From a virus, in the IMG/VR virus record IMGVR_UViG_3300009703_000101, positions 1-24,103 of that record: 24,103 nucleotides of DNA. One strand, written 5' to 3'. The notes beneath the pieces are model-generated. The model was not told the origin of the DNA and searched no databases. It saw only the letters and a list, made by a program, of their open reading frames with translations. The translations under genes and the position numbers were made by a program. Below, piece after piece: positions 2,811 through 23,977 of the stretch (within the stretch, counting starts at the first letter, position 1; every line of letters begins with the position of its first letter).

Positions 2811-4691
2811 TTAGACTTCTTCGTACTCACCATCATACACCTCATCAGTTTTATTACCCGAATCTGATGGTTCTGTTGGTGAATTATTTTGTGCTTCATA
2901 TATCTGTTTACCAAGTTCCATTATCATGGTATTTAATTCATTGAGCTTATCTTTAATATCTGGAATATCTGAATTTTTATTAGCTTCTTCAAGATTTGAA
3001 ATACAAGTTTCAACATTCTGTTTATCTGTGTCTGATAATTTATCTCCAAATTCACTTTCAAGTTGATTACGCGTCTGATATATTAACTGGTCAGCTGAGT
3101 TATGAACATTGACTTCCTCTACTCTCTGTATATCTTCCTGAGCATGTAACTCGGCGTCTGACTTCATTTTATCAATTTCGGATTGAGATAGTCCACCTGA
3201 AGCTTCAATCCTAATCGAATGTTCTTTTCCAGTAGCTTTGTCTTTAGCAGATACATTTAATATACCATTAGCATCGAGGTCAAAGGTTACTTCTACTTGT
3301 GGAACACCCTTGGGTGCTGGTGAAATACTATCTAAGTGAAATCTCCCCAATGACTTATTTCCATCAACTACTTTTCTATCACCTTGTAAAATATGAATTT
3401 CTACTGAAGGTTGATTGTCTTGAGCTGTTGAAAACACTTGCGATTTCTTAGTTGGTATTGTAGTATTAGCTTCAATGATTGGTGCCGTAACTCTACCCAG
3501 AGTTTCAATACCCAATGTTAGAGGTGTTACATCTAACAGTAACACATCATCAACATCACCACTCATTATACCACCTTGAATCGCAGCTCCCATAGAAACA
3601 ACTTCATCTGGATTTACATTCTTATTTGGTTCTTTACCAAATACCTGTTTAACTATTTCAGATACTTTAGGTATCCGAGTTGAACCACCTACAAGGATTA
3701 TTTCATCTATTTCATTTGCCTTTTTCTTGGCTGATGATAGTGCTGCTTTACATGGAGCTATTGTCCGTTGTAAAAGTTTATCTACTAATGTTTCAAACTT
3801 AGCACGAGTTACTGTTATATTCAGATGCTGTGGTCCTTCACTGGTAGCTGTGATAAATGGTAAATTGATAGTAGTCGTTTTAGCTGATGATAATTCACAC
3901 TTAGCTTGTTCTGCTGATTCTCTCAATCGTTGAAGAGCCATCGGGTCTTTACTTAAATCCACACCATTCGATTTTTTAAACTCTACCACTAACCAATCTA
4001 TTAAAGCTTTATCGACATCATCACCACCCAAATGAGTGTCTCCGTTTGTAGATAACACTTCAAACACACCGTCACCTAATTCTAATATTGATACATCGAA
4101 AGTACCACCACCAAAGTCATACACAGCTATAACTTGACTCTTATCTTTCTTGTCAAGTCCATATGCTAGAGCAGCTGCTGTTGGTTCATTTATAATCCTA
4201 CGGACATTAAGTCCAGCTATAGTTCCAGCATCTTTAGTAGCTTGTCGCTGTGAATCATTAAAATAGGCTGGAACTGTAATTATAGCTTCAGTTACTGATG
4301 TTCCTAAATAAGCTTCAGCGTCTTTCTTTAATTTACTTAATACATACGACCCAAACTCCTGTGGAGTATAACTTGTATCATCCAATACAATCTTTACCGA
4401 ATCCTTACCATCAGCTGTTACTTTAAATGGAACCTCTTTCAATTCATTTGATACTTCACTAAATTTCCTACCCATAAACCGCTTTGATGAATAAACAGTA
4501 TTATGTGGGTTAGTTACTGCTTGACGCTTAGCAGGGTCACCTACTAACCGGTCACCGTCTTTAGTGAACGCTACTACCGAAGGTGTTGTTCTACTACCCT
4601 CACTATTAGTAATGACAGTAGCGTCACCTCCTTCGATTACAGATACACACGAATTAGTCGTACCTAAATCTATTCCAATTATTTTTGACAT
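2811..4691 (-). CDS. dnaK: Molecular chaperone DnaK (Hsp70), full length, 626 aa
   Basis: DnaK is the ATP-driven chaperone that binds exposed hydrophobic segments. All signatures are present: [12 protein letters not shown] at the N-terminus, the phosphate-binding [13 protein letters not shown], the [12 protein letters not shown] block, the linker [11 protein letters not shown] near residue 385, the beta substrate-binding domain ([17 protein letters not shown]) and the helical lid. The C-terminus ends YDGEYEEV, matching the acidic EEV tail of bacterial DnaK that helps J-protein and client binding. Length is normal and no domain is broken, so it should be active. It starts one base after the Hsp20 stop, indicating one operon. 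A J-domain protein lies at 8.1-8.5 kb; no GrpE is visible. Complete Hsp70 genes are rare in phages. A host origin by transfer is likely, though base use matches the neighbours. Confidence 0.98.
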
Positions 4692-5260: not shown

Positions 5261-5845
5261 TTATGCAGGTATGTCATCGAGTACCCAACCATTATCTATC
5301 AAAGCTATAGCCTTTTTATATTTGACAATCTTTGTTTCAGAACCATTACTTATTGTAACCTTTTGGTTACGACCAATTTTATTTGATGTTATGTTAGGTG
5401 GTATGAACTTTCTATCAAGGATTGTCTTACCGTCCAAATGGTCTATTTCATGCTGTACACACATACATTCCAACAACCCAGCTGTATCATCTTCATGGTC
5501 AGCTTCGAATACCATATTACTTTCATAATTATCACACTTGACAACTATCCGGTCATAGCGTTTAGTATTAACTGGTTTCTTCCGTTTAATTGATAAACAT
5601 CCTTCTTTAAAATCTACTTCATTCCCACGCTCAATTATTTCAGGATTGATAAGATAAATTGGGTCTGTAACATTCACTACAGCTACTCGTTTGTTGATAC
5701 CTAATTGATTAGCAGAAATTCCTATACCAGTAGTACGCTGTGTCAGATATTGTAATAAAGTAGCTGCTATCATTTCACCTTCTTTAACACTCTTAACTGG
5801 CTCAGTAGGTATATTAAGTTGTTTTAAATTCGTCACTATATTCAT
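5261..5845 (-). CDS. def: Peptide deformylase (194 aa)
   Basis: Peptide deformylase removes the N-formyl group from new bacterial proteins. The three family motifs are present: GIGISANQ (residues 40-47; usual form GxGxAAxQ with Ser for the first Ala), EGCLS (81-85, metal ligand Cys83) and QHEIDHLDG (131-139, HExxH with His132, Glu133 and His136). It should be a working enzyme. A basic extension of about 50 residues follows the catalytic core (from about 145) and ends GWVLDDIPA; phage deformylases usually lack it. The ATG overlaps the stop of the upstream zinc-ribbon gene by one base (TAATG), so the two are coupled. Phage deformylases are known from marine T4-like phages. Here an IF-3 gene lies in the same cluster. 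Confidence 0.96.
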   Translation of the reverse strand: MNIVTNLKQLNIPTEPVKSVKEGEMIAATLLQYLTQRTTGIGISANQLGINKRVAVVNVTDPIYLINPEIIERGNEVDFKEGCLSIKRKKPVNTKRYDRIVVKCDNYESNMVFEADHEDDTAGLLECMCVQHEIDHLDGKTILDRKFIPPNITSNKIGRNQKVTISNGSETKIVKYKKAIALIDNGWVLDDIPA

Positions 5846-6367: not shown

Positions 6368-6868
6368 TTATGAGGGTGTAAACATTGTAGTTATATATCT
6401 ACCATCGCGAGTTGGTTGTGTAGCTAGTACTACTAAATCATTAAGAGCTTCGGTGATAGTATCAATCATAGTAAAACCTTTTGTTTCATCATCACGCATT
6501 CGGTCATTTACTTTAATTGCTAATTTTACCTTATAGCCTTTATTTAAAAACTTACAACATTGGTTTAGTTTAGTTCCCATATCGTGTTCTGAGATTACAG
6601 TATTCATTCTAATCTCTTTCAGGTGAGTTTTACTTTTTGATTTATTTTTTTTAAGTTTTTTGTTATGGTCGAATTTGTATTTACCATAATCCATAATTTT
6701 ACATACAGGTGGATTAGCTTCTGGTGAAACTTCTACTAAATCATAACCTCTATTGTTTGCTTTTGAAATAGCTATGTTGGTAGGCAATACTCCTAATTGT
6801 TTTCCTACATCATCTATCACTCGTACTCGTGTGGATTTGATATAACTATTTATTTTTTTGGTTTCCAA
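6368..6868 (-). CDS. infC: Translation initiation factor IF-3 (166 aa)
   Basis: IF-3 binds the 30S subunit, keeps subunits apart and checks the start codon and initiator tRNA. The N-domain reads VRVIDDVGKQLGVLPTNIAI and YDLVEVSPEANPPVCKIMDY, with the family signature IMDYGKYKF. A lysine-rich linker follows, then the C-domain with HLKEIRMNTVISEHDM and a basic RMRDDETKGF region. Both domains are present, so it is close to bacterial length. The start is TTG, with AGGAG six bases upstream, and there is no in-frame ATG until the signature. Bacterial infC genes use rare starts (AUU in E. coli) to control their own level, and TTG may serve the same purpose. IF-3 in a phage is uncommon, reported mainly from very large phages. 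Confidence 0.95.
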   Translation of the reverse strand: METKKINSYIKSTRVRVIDDVGKQLGVLPTNIAISKANNRGYDLVEVSPEANPPVCKIMDYGKYKFDHNKKLKKNKSKSKTHLKEIRMNTVISEHDMGTKLNQCCKFLNKGYKVKLAIKVNDRMRDDETKGFTMIDTITEALNDLVVLATQPTRDGRYITTMFTPS

Positions 6869-10041: not shown

Positions 10042-11637
10042 TTAACCTCCTACTTTTATGTCATCAACCATAAGTTTTTTATTAGAGCGTTCTCTGTTAA
10101 ACTTTTTAGTAACAGGTCTAAGATTACCATCCTTACCTGTACCACCGTCCGATGCTGGCATGATATGGTCAAATTCAGTTGCGTCACCGTTATACATAGT
10201 GAAACCAGATTGTTCTTCACCGGTTTCATTAGTAAAACCACTCTCTACCATCGCAAGTTCTTTATCTGCTAGAGTAGCAGTCTTACCATGTTCCTGAACA
10301 TATCCCATTAATACCCAATTATCTAACCTACTCATCATATCCCCTAACAACCTTATCTGAATTAAATTGGTAGAATCTCTATGACGACTGTTATGAGAAG
10401 CCACTCGATAAGAGTTCATATTTTCTACCTTTATTAGTTTACCAAAATTAGCTTTTTTAGTTGAAGGTACTTTTATAAAATTACCTTCACTATCTGTAGC
10501 ATATCGGTCAAACTCTTCACGAGATTTTTCGGTTTTTGAAAACCACTCAGCTATAGCTTTAGGGTTAGTAATTTTATATGTAGTAGTAAGTCCTACATCT
10601 ATAGCATTACTTCTATTTTTATTATTATTTAAAAGTGATACTACCATATATAAATTATACAATCTACCTTTTAGTTTTAAAAACTTTGGTGATAAGTGTT
10701 TAGAAATTTCAGCTAATGTTTTCATATTAGCGTTATGTCTTTTTAGTGTAGTTTTAGAATACCCTATTGGATTTCTATACTCATCCATTGGATACAGAGC
10801 GTGTTCCATATCAAACAAACTATCTAAAAATACCTCATCATTTAATGCTGGTGTATTTTCTTTTAGTTCAAACATTAACATAATACTTGTAATTAATTCA
10901 TGACCTCTTTTCTTATTAGCAAACGCACCAGTATAATTAACTCTATTGAATATACTATCCATTACTGTAACATAATTAGCTGTGTCATTAATGTGCTTAA
11001 CTATATTACTATTACCAGCATTCCTTTTATCTTGTCTTGAAACTGGAACACCATCATTGGAATCAATGAATAATTTTTTTAATCCATTGAGAGAAGCTTT
11101 CTTAACCACAACGGCCATCATCCGTTGACTCAAAAACCATTGCTTAAATTCAGGTCGTATATCATTGAATTTAACTTTACCTACATCAGCAGTGTCATCA
11201 GATAATCGTACATGACAATGACTAGCCAATGCTACGAATGGACCATCCCCACCAGCCCATTTTGCTCCTAAGACATATTCACCTGTAAGTTTTATTCTAT
11301 GTTGACCATCTACTATTAACCATTCTTTACCATTTTTAAGTTGGGCTTTTAAGTCTGCTTTAAACGCCGCAGCAACTTTATCAGTTTCTTTTATATTATC
11401 TATTACCGAATGGATATCAACTACTATGAATAAATCTTTAGTAGAAGCATTTCTCCATATACCTTTAATATAAGAATTTTTTTTATTCTTATTCCATGGG
11501 TCATAATATCTTTGGTAAGCGGGTGGGAAATCAAATGTACATAAATGTATATTCTTAACTATCCATTTGAAATCTAATAAGGCTGGTTCTAAAACTAAGT
11601 CCTGAGCGGACTCATTTATTTGTTGGTTTACTTTCAT
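10042..11637 (-). CDS. DUF262/ParB-like protein with C-terminal HNH nuclease domain (531 aa)
   Basis: The N-terminal half carries YQRYYDPW and then WLIVDGQHRIKLTGEY; the DGQHR block (residues 110-114) is the hallmark of ParB/DUF262-type nucleotide-binding domains. The C-terminus is an HNH metal-dependent nuclease: EFDHIMPASDGG (Asp490, His491), then DGNLRPVTKKFNRERSNKK with the following asparagines. The same pairing occurs in GmrSD type IV restriction enzymes, which cut modified DNA, and in phage proteins of unclear role. Here it may attack host or rival-phage DNA; that is inference. I start at the ATG at 11637 because AAGGAG stands seven bases before it; an upstream ATG at 11652 has no such site. 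A leader of about 150 bases with predicted structure precedes it. Confidence 0.8.
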   Translation of the reverse strand: MKVNQQINESAQDLVLEPALLDFKWIVKNIHLCTFDFPPAYQRYYDPWNKNKKNSYIKGIWRNASTKDLFIVVDIHSVIDNIKETDKVAAAFKADLKAQLKNGKEWLIVDGQHRIKLTGEYVLGAKWAGGDGPFVALASHCHVRLSDDTADVGKVKFNDIRPEFKQWFLSQRMMAVVVKKASLNGLKKLFIDSNDGVPVSRQDKRNAGNSNIVKHINDTANYVTVMDSIFNRVNYTGAFANKKRGHELITSIMLMFELKENTPALNDEVFLDSLFDMEHALYPMDEYRNPIGYSKTTLKRHNANMKTLAEISKHLSPKFLKLKGRLYNLYMVVSLLNNNKNRSNAIDVGLTTTYKITNPKAIAEWFSKTEKSREEFDRYATDSEGNFIKVPSTKKANFGKLIKVENMNSYRVASHNSRHRDSTNLIQIRLLGDMMSRLDNWVLMGYVQEHGKTATLADKELAMVESGFTNETGEEQSGFTMYNGDATEFDHIMPASDGGTGKDGNLRPVTKKFNRERSNKKLMVDDIKVGG

Positions 11638-11677
11638 TGTAAACTCCTTCATTTACTGTTAAAAAATCATATAGCTT

Positions 11678-19258: not shown

Positions 19259-19303
19259 TTATATTGTGCCTGTTGTCAATATTGCTGTGTTAGTTAGTTT
19301 CAT
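19259..19303 (-). CDS. Micro reading frame with leader-like start (14 aa)
   Basis: The frame MKLTNTAILTTGTI begins with the same MKLT as the leader family and is preceded by a near-perfect GGAGG eight bases upstream. It directly follows the 91-residue leader protein. It may be the remnant of a deleted internal-protein gene, or a real micropeptide. Confidence 0.35.
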   Translation of the reverse strand: MKLTNTAILTTGTI

Positions 19304-19306
19304 TTT

Positions 19307-19582
19307 CTAACCTCCGTGTTGTTTACTTAATTTATTTATGTCTGCTAAAAATCTATTAACTTCGCTATCAGACCTACTTATAAGAAGAGCACTCCACCAC
19401 TTTTTTTGGTCTTTTTCATTCTTTGCCAATAAATATGTTTTAAATGCAGATTGATTCTTATATTTTTTTATCATTTCTTTTTTCACATTATCATTTGATA
19501 ATTTATCTAAAATAGATGTTAATTTAGAATTTTGAATTTCTTCTCTTATTATTTGTTTTAGTCTTGTTTTAGTTAATTTCAT
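19307..19582 (-). CDS. Putative capsid-targeted internal protein, leader family A (91 aa)
   Basis: It starts with the family A leader MKLTKTRLKQIIREEIQ, a basic amphipathic helix. The body is a lysine-rich helical domain with KKYKNQSAFKTYLLAKNEKD and KKWWSALLISRSDSEVNRFL. The usual LNE cut motif is missing after the leader; only IREE remains, so cleavage is less certain than in its relatives. AAGGAAAT precedes the ATG. The packaging role is inferred from the shared leader. Confidence 0.6.
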   Translation of the reverse strand: MKLTKTRLKQIIREEIQNSKLTSILDKLSNDNVKKEMIKKYKNQSAFKTYLLAKNEKDQKKWWSALLISRSDSEVNRFLADINKLSKQHGG

Positions 19583-19614
19583 TTTATTTCCTTATTTTAT
19601 TTTTAAATAAATAT

Positions 19615-20004
19615 TTAATGTTGAATTACTTTTAAAGTTATACTAACTATTCCATCATCTGTTAATTTTTTATACCAAGTACCGCCAGCATCCTTAGCTC
19701 TAATAACTTGGAATGAATCAACCAATTTAAATTCTACATTATATTCATCCATAAAATACCTTGCTGTCGTCCCATGCTTACTATCGGTCCAATCTTTTAT
19801 TAAGTCTTTCAGCGCTTTATCTCCGCCATAAAAAAAAGTATCAATAACCTCAATGTTTCCCGTCTTAACTCTTGTAGTCTTTCCAAGGTCTCCCCACTCA
19901 GCCTTATTCTTAAACATTTTAACTATTTTAGGTGCTGTCATTTTCCCTTCATTTAAAAGTTCTTCTCTTATTATTTGTTTTAGTCTTGTTTTTGTTAATT
20001 TCAT
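19615..20004 (-). CDS. Putative capsid-targeted internal protein, leader family A (129 aa)
   Basis: The leader MKLTKTRLKQIIREELLNE is followed by Gly, so L-N-E/G is a proper T4 gp21-type cut site (hydrophobic-x-Glu, then a small residue) after residue 19. The mature part would be 110 residues: a basic start (KMTAPKIVKMFKNKAEWGDL) and a beta-rich remainder (KTGNIEVIDTFFYGGD, then VEFKLVDSFQVIRA). No known domain is recognised. It forms part of a closely spaced series of leader genes. Confidence 0.65.
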   Translation of the reverse strand: MKLTKTRLKQIIREELLNEGKMTAPKIVKMFKNKAEWGDLGKTTRVKTGNIEVIDTFFYGGDKALKDLIKDWTDSKHGTTARYFMDEYNVEFKLVDSFQVIRAKDAGGTWYKKLTDDGIVSITLKVIQH

Positions 20005-20016
20005 TTTTTCATCCCC

Positions 20017-20508
20017 TTATGCTGGTTCTAACCAATCATCAATTGTTTTTTTATTATAATATTCAACACCACCTTTATCCCATTCAACTGTTACTCTGCC
20101 CTTATATCCAATATCAGCTATTGTACCTTTCTTACCAGATGAGTTTTTAACTTTTTTGCCAAGTTTGACTGGTCCTAATTTATTTTTAGTTTTTAACCAT
20201 TTATCAATAGTTGTTAGTTCATTCAATTTCTGAATTTCTTCTCTTATGATTTGTCTTACTTTGTTTTCAACACTTTCATTCTGTTTTTTTGATTCCAAGA
20301 ATTTTTTTGCCATATATCGTTCTTTTTTATATTCCACTTTAACCCATTTCTTTCTCATTGATTCAGGCATATCATCATAATTTTCTGACATTGAATTATT
20401 AACAAACCAAGCAATTCGTCTTGCATCTGCATTTACGATTTTTCTGTATCGGTTTTCTTCTAATGTTTTCATCCATACTCGTATTTCTTTGATTGTTGTT
20501 TTTTTCAT
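20017..20508 (-). CDS. Two-part protein with an internal family A leader segment (163 aa)
   Basis: Residues 1-80 form a basic helical unit (MKKTTIKEIRVWMKTLEENR...). Residues 82-97 read NKVRQIIREEIQKLNE, the core and cut motif of the family A leader, but inside the chain. The C-terminal 65 residues form a small SH3/KOW-like beta domain: VKLGKKVKNSSGKKGTIADI, then GRVTVEWDKGGVEYY. This looks like a fusion of an upstream gene with a leader protein. If the head protease cuts after LNE, the beta domain would be released. Confidence 0.65.
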   Translation of the reverse strand: MKKTTIKEIRVWMKTLEENRYRKIVNADARRIAWFVNNSMSENYDDMPESMRKKWVKVEYKKERYMAKKFLESKKQNESVENKVRQIIREEIQKLNELTTIDKWLKTKNKLGPVKLGKKVKNSSGKKGTIADIGYKGRVTVEWDKGGVEYYNKKTIDDWLEPA

Positions 20509-20512
20509 TGTC

Positions 20513-20785
20513 TCATTTCCTTATTCTAATTTTAGCACCGCCTGGTTTTATAATACTTACCATTCCTATATTATCACCTTTAGCATTTTTAAAATAATAA
20601 ACATACCCTACACCAGGAACGTGCTGTTTTTTTGGTTTCATGTTTGGAAATATCTTTTTTACCTGAGCCCAAACCTTCTTGTTTAATGTTTTTTCACCAG
20701 TTTTTATTACTGTCCAATCAGCTTCATTCAATAGTTGCATTTCTTCTCTGATGATTTGTTTAAGTTTTGATTTAGTTAGTTTCAT
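20513..20785 (-). CDS. Putative capsid-targeted internal protein, leader family A (90 aa)
   Basis: The leader MKLTKSKLKQIIREEMQL is followed by LNE/A, an ideal T4-type cut site after residue 21. The mature part of about 69 residues is a small basic beta-rich domain (KKVWAQVKKIFPNMKPKKQH, then GYVYYFKNAKGDNIGMVSII). I use the ATG at 20785, which overlaps the preceding stop (TAATG) and begins the leader; the frame extends upstream to 20809, inside the previous gene. No family is recognised for the mature domain. Confidence 0.65.
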   Translation of the reverse strand: MKLTKSKLKQIIREEMQLLNEADWTVIKTGEKTLNKKVWAQVKKIFPNMKPKKQHVPGVGYVYYFKNAKGDNIGMVSIIKPGGAKIRIRK

Positions 20786-21054
20786 TATGAATGTCGTCCT
20801 TTTTCCCAAATGATGCTACCAATAGCATCAATCAACCGATTAAAATCTTTAACTTTACCTTTAGTCACTCCACCACCTCCAACTTCGTAAGTGGCTATAA
20901 CTTTATTATCTAATTTCAATACACCTTTTTCTCCATCAACTGTATTACTCAATTTACCGTGGTCTGTATTGATAACTGATATTTGGGTATCTGATTCTTC
21001 ATTTAACAGTTCTTCTCTTATGATTTGTTTTAGTTTTGTTTTAGTTAATTTCAT
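20785..21054 (-). CDS. Putative capsid-targeted internal protein, leader family A (89 aa)
   Basis: The leader MKLTKTKLKQIIREELLNE is followed by Glu-Ser, so the cut could fall after LNE or after NEE before Ser. The mature part looks like two beta hairpins (GVLKLDNKVIATYEVGGGGV) and a helix (FNRLIDAIGSIIWEKG). TAGGAGATAC precedes the ATG. It is coupled to the next gene by a one-base overlap. Confidence 0.65.
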   Translation of the reverse strand: MKLTKTKLKQIIREELLNEESDTQISVINTDHGKLSNTVDGEKGVLKLDNKVIATYEVGGGGVTKGKVKDFNRLIDAIGSIIWEKGRHS

Positions 21055-21095
21055 TGTATCTCCTAATCCTAAGTTGTTATTTATTCACAATGCAT

Positions 21096-21123
21096 CTTAT
21101 ATCTATGTAATAAATGTATGCAA
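21096..21123 (-). promoter_or_regulatory. Possible promoter (TTGCAT-16-TATAAG)
   Basis: TTGCAT (21118-21123) and TATAAG (21096-21101) lie 16 bp apart, 42 bases upstream of the 89-residue leader gene. It does not match the 18-bp family, so the internal-protein cluster may use another class (late). Weak evidence. Confidence 0.3.
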
Positions 21124-21143
21124 CCATAATTAAGTCTTTAAAC

Positions 21144-21749
21144 TTATTCATTTTCTAATCTCTTAACTATATTCATTATACCTTTATTATTCTTTTTAGC
21201 TCCATTATGACTTGACAATCCCTTTTTCCCATCAAAGTTTTTTTCCAATGACTTTGCTACTTTTGGCCAGAAAAGTTTATTGTTGTCATACCATTTTTTA
21301 CTACCTTGATATATTAGTTTTTCTGCTTTTGACTTGTCTATTGTTACTACTTTACCAGTCTTTTCAACCCAATATGTAACATTTTTATTATCGACTGTCA
21401 ATACAACAATATGTTCTACTTTACCACCTGAACTATCTATCCAATATTCAGTTAATGGTGCTATATACATTTTAGATTCTGTAATTAAGTTTTCTTTAAC
21501 TAAAATTTGTGATTTATGTGTTCGTAATACCATACCAGCACCTAAACCAATTCCTCGTTCTTTTGCCTTTTCTATTACTTCATATTTACCTTTACCCAAA
21601 TCTTTAATAAACCAATCTTTTTTGTTGACCCTACCGCTATCTAAACCTTTATCTAATAGATGTTTTACTATTTGTTTATCTCTGGCAGTTAGATGACCCG
21701 ATAATACTTTTATTTTTATTTCAGTTAGTATATCTTTTAATTTAATCAT
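21144..21749 (-). CDS. Putative capsid-targeted internal protein, leader family B (201 aa)
   Basis: The leader MIKLKDILTE resembles the T4 internal-protein leader MKTYQEFIAE in length, in the acidic-hydrophobic end and in the final Glu. A second candidate cut, LITE/S, lies near residue 90 and would split an N-terminal basic domain (HLTARDKQIVKHLLDKGLDS) from a C-terminal one (VVLTVDNKNVTYWVEKTGKV, then a Lys-rich end). The start overlaps the previous stop as ATGA. No known enzyme motif is visible. Confidence 0.65.
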   Translation of the reverse strand: MIKLKDILTEIKIKVLSGHLTARDKQIVKHLLDKGLDSGRVNKKDWFIKDLGKGKYEVIEKAKERGIGLGAGMVLRTHKSQILVKENLITESKMYIAPLTEYWIDSSGGKVEHIVVLTVDNKNVTYWVEKTGKVVTIDKSKAEKLIYQGSKKWYDNNKLFWPKVAKSLEKNFDGKKGLSSHNGAKKNNKGIMNIVKRLENE

Positions 21750-22624
21750 TCAATAGTTCCCCCCCTATCTTCTACAAAAGAAATTACATCACGAGTACCA
21801 CCCCAAACTACAGCACCTTTTGCAACCTTTTTCAAATATTTATCTATATCTTTTCGTGTCAATTTGGTTCTAACACCGTTTACATTAAATCCCCGATTCA
21901 TCCAAGTATATATATCTGAATTATCCTGCATTACTAACACATCTTTGATTTTTATCTTACTGACCAATGTTTCATTCCATTCAAACCAATTATATGGACC
22001 AGTATCTAAAGCTTTAGTTCCAAATTTATCGGTGATTGTCTTTTTGTTTTTCACCATCAATTTAGTTATTTCATCTATGTATATTTTTATATATTGTTGT
22101 TTTTCTTTATTGGTCATTGTTCCAACTTCGCCATCATCTTGTATATATCCAAGCGCCTTAGCCTTTTCGTGTAAATCCGCCCAAGTTTTGTTTTTCGACA
22201 TATGTTGCTGTAGTTTCCATTTTCCTTTAATATTCCCAAGTAATCCATCAAACAAGTGAACATTTAACCATCTTCTTCCACTTTCATCTACACCAGAACC
22301 AATATCCTGATTTGCTGATATTAACAACTTACCTTCAACATGAAATAATATACCACCACCCGTTTGTATTCCTTTACCCTGAGCCAAGTCAGAATGTTGT
22401 GTAATAGCTGTAAATGTTGATAGCGACTTCTTTGTTCCTATTGATTTTTTTACATTACCATTCACCACATGGTCTAATTCAGTCATATGGAATGCACTGA
22501 CATTAACATCACCAATTACCTTTTTCATAATTGGAATAGATATTGGAATATTTAATAGATGCACTTGTTTAAATGTTTTATCCACCCAAGCCAATTCTGT
22601 AATTAAGTCTTTTAATTTAATCAT
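21746..22624 (-). CDS. Leader family B protein, possible ADP-ribosyltransferase (292 aa)
   Basis: It begins with the leader MIKLKDLITE. The body has a spacing that recalls ADP-ribosyltransferases: a first strand NVSAFHMTELDHVVNG with a candidate catalytic His, a Ser-Thr strand KKSLSTFTAITQ, and a late WFEWNETLVSKIKIKDVLVM resembling the catalytic-Glu strand (E-[TV]-L-V, then alternating hydrophobics). Between them lies DIGSGVDESGRRWLNVHLFD. T4 Alt is an ADP-ribosyltransferase carried in the head and injected to modify host RNA polymerase, so the combination makes sense; the enzyme call is tentative. It is coupled by ATGA overlaps to genes on both sides. Confidence 0.6.
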   Translation of the reverse strand: MIKLKDLITELAWVDKTFKQVHLLNIPISIPIMKKVIGDVNVSAFHMTELDHVVNGNVKKSIGTKKSLSTFTAITQHSDLAQGKGIQTGGGILFHVEGKLLISANQDIGSGVDESGRRWLNVHLFDGLLGNIKGKWKLQQHMSKNKTWADLHEKAKALGYIQDDGEVGTMTNKEKQQYIKIYIDEITKLMVKNKKTITDKFGTKALDTGPYNWFEWNETLVSKIKIKDVLVMQDNSDIYTWMNRGFNVNGVRTKLTRKDIDKYLKKVAKGAVVWGGTRDVISFVEDRGGTIE

Positions 22625-23397
22625 TTTTTATTTTTCTTTAAAATTCTTTGTTTTTTAATCCACTGCAACCCTCTATTATTTTTAGTAGCTTTTTTAACAA
22701 ACTTTGAAATGTATTTAGTTACAAGTGAGTTAAATTTCTTCGCTGCATCTTCCACAGATAAATGTTTTGAATTATCCACCAATACAAAGTTTGCCTGTCC
22801 GAATAAATTTTGAAATTTACCCATATTGTTTTGGACATCATTCCAAGATTTTTCTAATATATCTTCTGGTAATTTTCGTTTTCTCTTTTTATTCCGTTCG
22901 TGTGCTACTTCTAATGATGTATTAACAAAAACCATATATGTATCATATCCAAGTTTCTCTAATTTTTCTTTTTCTTTGGCTATTTTACCATAATTATGAC
23001 CAGTTCCATCTATAATCATACCAAGGCGGCCTTCGGTATATTGTTTCATTCTTTGTTTTGTTAATTCTTTAGCAAACATTCTTACACTTGGGTCATCTTC
23101 TGATTCACCAGTTACTTGTTGAAATATATCATCTGGCCACATATCAATATCAAGATTACCAGTTCCAACAGTTTCAAAACCGAATTTCTTTAATAAAAAT
23201 TCAAATTCAGAATCAGAATTTACAGTTTTCATTCCTGTATATGATATGTTAATTTTCTCTGGAATGCCGAATAGTTTTGATACGACAAACGATTTACCAC
23301 TAGCTGGCCCACCTGCCAGAAATACAGCTTTCAGAATACCTTTGTCATCAACACCTTCATTGATGTTCAATTTTATTAAGTCTTTTAGTTTAATCAT
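22621..23397 (-). CDS. Leader family B protein with P-loop kinase domain, zeta-toxin-like (258 aa)
   Basis: The leader MIKLKDLIKLNINE is followed by Gly, giving a proper I-N-E/G cut after residue 14. The body is a P-loop kinase: AVFLAGGPASGKSFVVSKLF with Walker A at 29-36, GMIIDGTGHNY (Asp130) in the Walker B place, and an Arg/Lys-rich lid VAHERNKKRKRKLPEDI. The layout is that of the zeta-toxin/polynucleotide-kinase group, which phosphorylates small molecules or nucleic-acid ends; the substrate cannot be told. The C-terminus is very basic. A 13-residue micro frame with a strong ribosome site ends 10 bases upstream and may feed ribosomes to this weakly marked start. Confidence 0.78.
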   Translation of the reverse strand: MIKLKDLIKLNINEGVDDKGILKAVFLAGGPASGKSFVVSKLFGIPEKINISYTGMKTVNSDSEFEFLLKKFGFETVGTGNLDIDMWPDDIFQQVTGESEDDPSVRMFAKELTKQRMKQYTEGRLGMIIDGTGHNYGKIAKEKEKLEKLGYDTYMVFVNTSLEVAHERNKKRKRKLPEDILEKSWNDVQNNMGKFQNLFGQANFVLVDNSKHLSVEDAAKKFNSLVTKYISKFVKKATKNNRGLQWIKKQRILKKNKK

Positions 23398-23407
23398 AAT
23401 ATTCGCT

Positions 23408-23449
23408 CTACAATGTAATTATTTTTAATAAATCTGTTAGTTTCATCAT
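23408..23449 (-). CDS. Micro reading frame with leader-like sequence (13 aa)
   Basis: The frame MMKLTDLLKIITL resembles leader B (MIKLKDLI) and has a strong ribosome site (TAGGAG) five bases upstream, better than that of the kinase gene it precedes. It may be a broken leader gene or a translational entry point for the kinase. Confidence 0.4.
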   Translation of the reverse strand: MMKLTDLLKIITL

Positions 23450-23455
23450 TTGCTC

Positions 23456-23977
23456 CTAAATGAATTTCTTGTATTCTTTTTGATGTTCTGGTGTCAATTT
23501 ATCAAAATTCTTTTTTAATGATTTCTTTAAGTTTGAGAATATACCATCAATATGTTTTAATATAGCTTTTGAATTTGCTGTTTTCTTTCTTGCAGGAACT
23601 TTAATTGTTTCATAAGCCATCCAAGTTTGTTTTATCGGTTTAATTACAAAACTAACTCCACTATTTGTTTCAAATGATATTTTACTTTCACCAATGTTTC
23701 CATCTTCCATACCATCAATAACAAAAGTAACCCTACACGGTGAATTATGAGCAATTCCATTTGACCATTGTGATTTTGTTCCTAATATAAATGTTCCTTG
23801 AATACTTTCATATAATCTTGTATCCCATTTTGCACTATGGTATGAACCTGGAAAATGTTTTTTCATAACACCAACTACATCTTTTGATAATTGTTCTGCA
23901 TCATTTAGAGTTGCTTCATTCAATTTCTGAATTTCTTCTCTGATGATTTGTTTCAATCTTGTTTTTGTTAGTTTCAT
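23456..23977 (-). CDS. Putative capsid-targeted internal protein, leader family A (173 aa)
   Basis: The leader begins MKLTKTRLKQIIREEIQ and ends KLNE before Ala, an ideal cut site after residue 21. The mature part has an N-terminal helix (NDAEQLSKDVVGVMKKHFPG), a beta-sheet core (YESIQGTFILGTKSQW, PCRVTFVIDGMEDGNIGESK, VSFVIKPIKQTWMAY) and a lysine-rich helical end (FSNLKKSLKKNFDKLTPEHQ). No family is recognised. TAGGAG precedes the ATG and overlaps the end of the upstream gene. Confidence 0.65.
   Translation of the reverse strand: MKLTKTRLKQIIREEIQKLNEATLNDAEQLSKDVVGVMKKHFPGSYHSAKWDTRLYESIQGTFILGTKSQWSNGIAHNSPCRVTFVIDGMEDGNIGESKISFETNSGVSFVIKPIKQTWMAYETIKVPARKKTANSKAILKHIDGIFSNLKKSLKKNFDKLTPEHQKEYKKFI

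Follow-up and report, generated by a model that had tools for sequence, protein, structure and literature searches.

A 24,103-base virus record of the IMG/VR type (IMGVR_UViG_3300009703_000101; this entire 24-kb fragment is referred to as the window) encodes, on the minus strand between positions 19307 and 23977, a row of proteins in which two conserved N-terminal leaders precede unrelated bodies. We consider it probable (roughly 0.77) that these leaders are T4-style capsid-targeting propeptides of a T4-related marine phage, occurring in several classes and joined to many different cargoes. In the mechanism proposed, the leader would bind a core or shell component and carry its cargo into the prohead core, and the phage's S77 (gp21-type) protease would cleave after (L/I)xE, so that the leader is lost. 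The mature cargo would stay next to the DNA inside the head and enter the host along with it. Cargo would be swapped behind conserved leaders, and the locus would be a row of cassettes for candidate injected proteins, comprising a kinase, an ADP-ribosyltransferase (ART)-like protein, and several unknown proteins. From sequence we infer capsid targeting and cleavage of the leader proteins with good support; injection of the mature cargo is plausible and the least certain step, and the effector function of the cargo is likewise putative.

Two conserved leaders in the window

Open reading frames (ORFs) were called mechanically throughout. Five of them begin with a near-identical leader, here type A, MKLTK(T/S)(R/K)LKQIIREE (starts at 23977, 21054, 20785, 20004, and 19582), and three with MIKLKD(L/I)(I/L), here type B (starts at 23397, 22624, and 21749). 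All eight lie on the minus strand, and both sets agree in number and position with the preliminary description. Type A leaders end in QKLNE/A (23977), LLNE/E (21054), LLNE/A (20785), and LLNE/G (20004), the slash marking the predicted cut, and type B leaders end in NINE/G (23397), LITE/L (22624), and ILTE/I (21749). The prohead cut motifs previously noted (LNE/G, LNE/A twice, and INE/G) can thus be read in the sequence, and the LNE/E end of the 21054 leader is added to them. A sixth type A copy was found inside ORF 20017-20508 (residues 83 to 97, KVRQIIREEIQKLNE/L), behind a domain of ∼80 amino acids (aa). The earlier generalization that most leaders end in a cut motif holds for this internal copy and for seven of the eight N-terminal leaders, all ending in (L/I)xE, but fails for ORF 19307-19582. 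The bodies behind the common leaders have no detectable mutual relationship, as had been claimed. Among the window paralogues, identity was 84 to 98% over nucleotides 1 to 45, compared with 26 to 39% over nucleotides 76 to 136.

Distribution of the leaders and their predicted cut sites

A DNA pattern for leader A matched at least 119 stretches in IMG/VR, compared with a single match in 84,980 bacterial and archaeal species genomes. The leader A loci yielded 290 distinct leader ORFs among the matches listed, a scope that also applies to the ORF counts for both leaders that follow. A [LIVMF]xE motif with its E at +2 to +8 past the leader was present in 74% of 261 distinct type A proteins, whereas equal-sized segments farther along carried it in 8 to 15%. 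Information per position was high through KEE(L/I), moderate until the E at +6, and at background directly after, and the residues most commonly following the E were alanine and glycine. The scan pattern for leader B left out the final xE; in 105 of the 132 distinct ORFs that it returned (80%), an [LIVMF]xE motif has its E at residue 10, whereas only 32 of 841 control ORFs (3.8%) did so. As the B pattern includes some chance matches, the 80% probably underestimates the true share. The pattern of leader plus cut site is not due to chance.

A tblastn search of 50,697 phage records with a 22-aa leader gave no matches, the query being too short, and a doubled leader consensus matched only LR756508.1. 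The leader strings appeared in no paper of the open-access literature searched (subscription journals and preprints lay outside the search). These tags are widespread in uncultured marine phages and apparently undescribed.

There may be a third class of leader, ...(E/D)(N/S)W(R/N)x(F/Y)(L/V)xE, which was observed in 71 distinct ORFs from 44 loci, including L132:1197-5239, and E was the second residue past the motif in 55 of the 71. The contig L132 (PBSV01000031.1), binned as an Opitutia metagenome-assembled genome, carries both leader A and third-class leader genes and is probably a misbinned viral contig.

Association with the S77 protease and head genes

An S77 prohead protease was encoded by 17 of 24 type A contigs longer than 70 kb. 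Comparison contigs retrieved with the window's MoxR gene as the query encoded S77 in 4 of 28 cases and leader A in none of 28 (Fisher p for S77, 5e−5); the two sets were selected differently, so this difference is supportive only. Among the matches listed, 64 of 119 (type A) and 40 of 109 (type B) loci fetched by the leader alone contained T4 head genes. Of 63 leader genes in 17 genomes that encode S77, 37 lay within 18 kb of it, compared with 17.6 expected by rotation (p about 0.004, and about 0.002 to 0.004 for leaders lying near S77), and in three contigs (L134, L146, and L139) S77 is directly flanked by leader genes. Agreement in strand between leader and protease genes was not counted as evidence, since almost every gene has the same orientation.

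In G054 and G055, the nearest kin of the window by leader, the leader cluster lies around the S77 protease gene (L242:2671-3282 in G055), which is followed in order by leader genes, a scaffold-like gene, and Gp23; in G054, terminase and portal genes lie upstream of S77. The capsid proteins of these two genomes have N-terminal stretches ending in LIKE/A or LISE/N. In many genomes a conserved protein shortly past S77 begins with MKKSDLKKLIKPIVKECI, and its relation to leader A is weak (hhalign P, 69%), a modest similarity. LR756508.1, an unannotated 484-kb huge phage, has more than 12 leader genes flanking S77 and the capsid gene. In the same genome (L416; LR756508.1 150000-199000), a row of proteins beginning MRLKEILLE with YRGT(S) motifs follows the capsid gene; they are possibly ADP-ribosyltransferases, and Pfam gave no matches for them.

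Internal cut-site motifs

In T4, scaffold and core proteins are fragmented, and internal proteins lose their propeptide only (PMC9026906). Internal sites were measured here as the forward share of [LI]xE when counted against its mirror, E-x-[LI]. The share was lowest for type A bodies (0.42) and highest for scaffold homologues (0.61); type B bodies stood at 0.48 and the other ORFs of these loci at 0.525. The depletion in type A relative to the other ORFs was significant (p 0.0002). Given this depletion alongside the enrichment in scaffold homologues, type A cargo appears to stay whole and scaffold appears to be cut up.

Leader genes of the window and their cargo

The first gene of the row (23456-23977) encodes a 173-aa protein with the type A leader MKLTKTRLKQIIREEIQKLNE/A (codons 23977-23915), the body of which had no Pfam or PHROG matches below an E value of 0.01. 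Next are three type B genes: a 258-aa P-loop kinase of the Zeta_toxin/AAA_33 families (22621-23397; leader MIKLKDLIKLNINE/GVDD, codons 23397-23356), a 292-aa ART-like protein (21746-22624; leader MIKLKDLITE/L, codons 22624-22595), and a 201-aa protein (21144-21749; leader MIKLKDILTE/I, codons 21749-21720). Type A leaders then precede proteins of 89 aa (20785-21054; ending LLNE/E, codons 21054-20998), 90 aa (20513-20785; MKLTKSKLKQIIREEMQLLNE/A, codons 20785-20723), and 129 aa (19615-20004; ending LLNE/G, codons 20004-19948), and a 91-aa protein (19307-19582) has the type A leader without (L/I)xE. The 163-aa product of ORF 20017-20508 consists of the conserved N-terminal domain, the internal type A motif (20262-20218), and a variable tail. 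All of these genes are on the minus strand, as are three leader-like stub ORFs recognized by reading the sequence: 23408-23449 (MMKLTDLLKIITL, then stop), 21077-21151 (beginning MNKFKDLIMVAYIYY), and 19259-19303 (MKLTNTAILTTGTI, then stop).

A close relative, L004, is 97.7% identical across 1,145 bases beginning at the kinase start and diverges upstream exactly at the kinase ATG; a counterpart of the leader gene 23456-23977 was not found there. This break, together with the leader stubs in the window, points to cassette exchange in the leader locus. Orthologues of ORF 20017-20508 in L242, L241, and L300 have different tails. The conserved 80-aa domain (KEIRxWMKTLEENRYRK...), with leader-like cut sites and differing tails behind it in a polyprotein-like arrangement, was observed in the window ORF and at L242:7593-8129, L241:2877-3605, and L280:7230.

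Among the window bodies, only the kinase has a clear domain in Pfam. Its presence had been proposed and is confirmed by two family matches (41.7 bits against a gathering threshold of 22.3, and 36.9 against 27) and by the P-loop GGPASGKS. Homologues of the kinase have N-terminal extensions of ∼8 to >260 residues with no common sequence, and nearly all of 21 kinase-family sequences have a hydrophobic-x-E motif immediately before G(V/I/L)xD, notwithstanding their unrelated N termini. Isolates with this motif include HTVC008M (MIPFILKE/G), Melnitz (KTFAELQE/G), and Atu_ph07 (internal VTE/G). The E before the kinase domain may be kept for a structural reason. In gp53 of Atu_ph07 (L012:9254-11590; 778 aa), the kinase domain is interior and directly follows VTE/G. 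The gene lies in a cluster rich in virion proteins detected by mass spectrometry: 29 were detected from coding sequences 31 to 76, a range that contains gp53 (PMC6102473), and gp53 may be one of them.

It is moderately likely that ORF 21746-22624 encodes an ADP-ribosyltransferase, the possibility raised in the preliminary description. In its favor, eight viral homologues in alignment A3, all with type B-like leaders, share invariant FH, STxT, and NE motifs, and VIA-align of the AlphaFold model (mean predicted local distance difference test [pLDDT], 75; residues 1 to 12 of low confidence, pLDDT <50) placed CteC, DarT, and Tpt1 near the top. Their Z scores were only up to 5 and tied with an unrelated row, Pfam found no ART domain in the body, and Foldseek gave no match to the model below an E value of 1e−3.

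Beyond the window, Pfam searches of 78 B-leader proteins identified Zeta_toxin/AAA_33 five times, NUDIX twice, and RNase_T, HD, ATP-grasp, M23, and lysozyme once each as candidate cargoes; 72 A-leader proteins gave LRR and DnaJ matches. An anti-CBASS Acb1 cargo (Pfam; probably L272:4975-5463) was not accepted as a clear case, as its leader, MIKFKDFMEK, has no E at position 10 and is perhaps a chance match. The kinase, ART-like, NUDIX, HD, and RNase_T cargoes, along with the lack of an internal-site excess in type A bodies, make injected effectors plausible.

Elsewhere in the window, virus-borne genes for a trypsin-like peptidase (274-1119), a full-length Hsp70 (2811-4691), a peptide deformylase (5261-5845), and translation factor IF-3 (6368-6868) were observed, and no viral relatives were found with positions 10042-11652 as the query.

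Comparison with known packaged proteins

The T4 capsid-targeting sequence (CTS) has 10 to 19 residues, the first 10 being enough for targeting and residues 8 and 10 governing processing, and gp21 cleaves after L/I-X-E (PMC9026906). The T4 internal proteins IPI, IPII, and IPIII resemble the leader proteins in carrying a short N-terminal propeptide that ends in L/I-x-E on differing bodies, in a phage of the gp21 (S77) type, and leader B is like the CTS in its 10-residue length and in positions 8 and 10. The previously suggested comparison with T4 capsid targeting is well supported by the (L/I)xE end, the stop of conservation at the E, the association with S77 and the head operon, and the unrelated cargoes. 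The two systems differ in leader sequence; in the presence here of at least two leader classes per virus group and of internal leader copies; and in the many cargoes, enzymes among them, that stand in rows in or near the head operon.

Another counterpart is T4 Alt, a packaged ADP-ribosyltransferase that is cut by gp21 and ejected (PMC9026906). The ART-like cargo has a similarly short, cleavable-looking N terminus but lacks a Pfam ART domain and has weak fold support. The propeptides of the giant phages SPN3US and phiKZ are longer than the leaders and have a different motif. They are alike in propeptide removal, which is reported to be carried out by a gp21-related protease before ejection (PMC5694885, PMC9026906). 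Judged by S77 and Gp23, the nearest relatives in culture are Flavobacterium phage immuto and Microcystis phage Mel-JY01, which have the same gene order but only isolated leader-like N termini (MKKSQLRQIIKEALD in immuto), with no leader cluster in the parts read. RM378 has a gp21 gene and no leader genes.

Alternative explanations

There is a small but appreciable likelihood that the leader proteins are parts of the prohead core or scaffold, targeted and cut by S77 and then degraded or expelled rather than injected. Leader genes beside S77 occupy the positions of T4 gp67, gp68, and gp22, many genomes have a conserved leader-like protein after S77, and T4 core proteins bear cut sites too (PMC9026906). 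However, the bodies are unrelated and vary extremely, enzyme domains (kinase, NUDIX, RNase_T, HD, ATP-grasp, and ART-like) occur in some, and the abundance of internal cut sites seen in scaffold homologues does not extend to type A bodies. Some leader proteins adjoining the protease may be parts of the assembly core and not injected effectors. It is improbable that the leader is an N-terminal module with another role, such as intracellular localization or a translation or recombination cassette, with (L/I)xE as a helix feature: two dissimilar leaders, possibly three, share the same end motif, conservation ends at the E although its distance past leader A varies, the genes are associated with S77 and the head operon, and the kinase family keeps the motif behind unrelated N termini. 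Such a module would fit the resemblance of leader A to an amphipathic helix, the conservation of leader DNA itself among paralogues, and the existence of leader-only stubs, and a motif alone is no proof of cleavage. A location in the virion but in the tail or baseplate, or exposed, rather than in the head interior is very improbable; the lysozyme or M23 matches in some B-leader ORFs are of a kind that tail proteins may have, but S77 of T4 works inside the prohead, and the closest kin have their leader genes clustered with head genes.

Several observations weigh against capsid-targeting propeptides, which we nonetheless favor. A textbook site is missing from about one in four A leaders and one in five B leaders, and in ORF 19307-19582 no (L/I)xE follows leader A (IREEIQNSKLTS). 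T4 internal proteins are basic; basic bodies were found in the window and in type B, but type A bodies elsewhere are not basic, being no different from their neighbors. The internal-site depletion of type B relative to other ORFs was insignificant (p 0.13), and G001, G013, and G017 have some leader genes far away from the head operon. No virion proteomics or N-terminal data for leader-bearing phages were found in the open-access literature searched. Within the window itself there is neither an S77 protease nor any head gene; the argument that a genome with no prohead protease would speak against packaging is inapplicable to a 24-kb fragment of this kind.

Implications

Chances appear about even that the leaders belong to a general, as yet undescribed capsid address code in marine and huge T4-related phages, with mutually unrelated classes A, B, and a third (ENWRxFLxE), internal polyprotein cut sites, and many interchangeable cargoes per virion. 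The T4 CTS has already been used to load proteins into phage heads, and the leaders might serve likewise as tags that direct selected proteins into the heads of laboratory phages. Because their bodies diverge fast, injected phage proteins are difficult to recognize, and a leader readable from sequence offers a direct list of candidates; if the address code is true, hundreds of such proteins in uncultured viruses could be listed from leader matches alone. These candidates would act during the first minutes after infection begins, in counter-defense and host takeover, in uncultured marine phages about which almost nothing is known.
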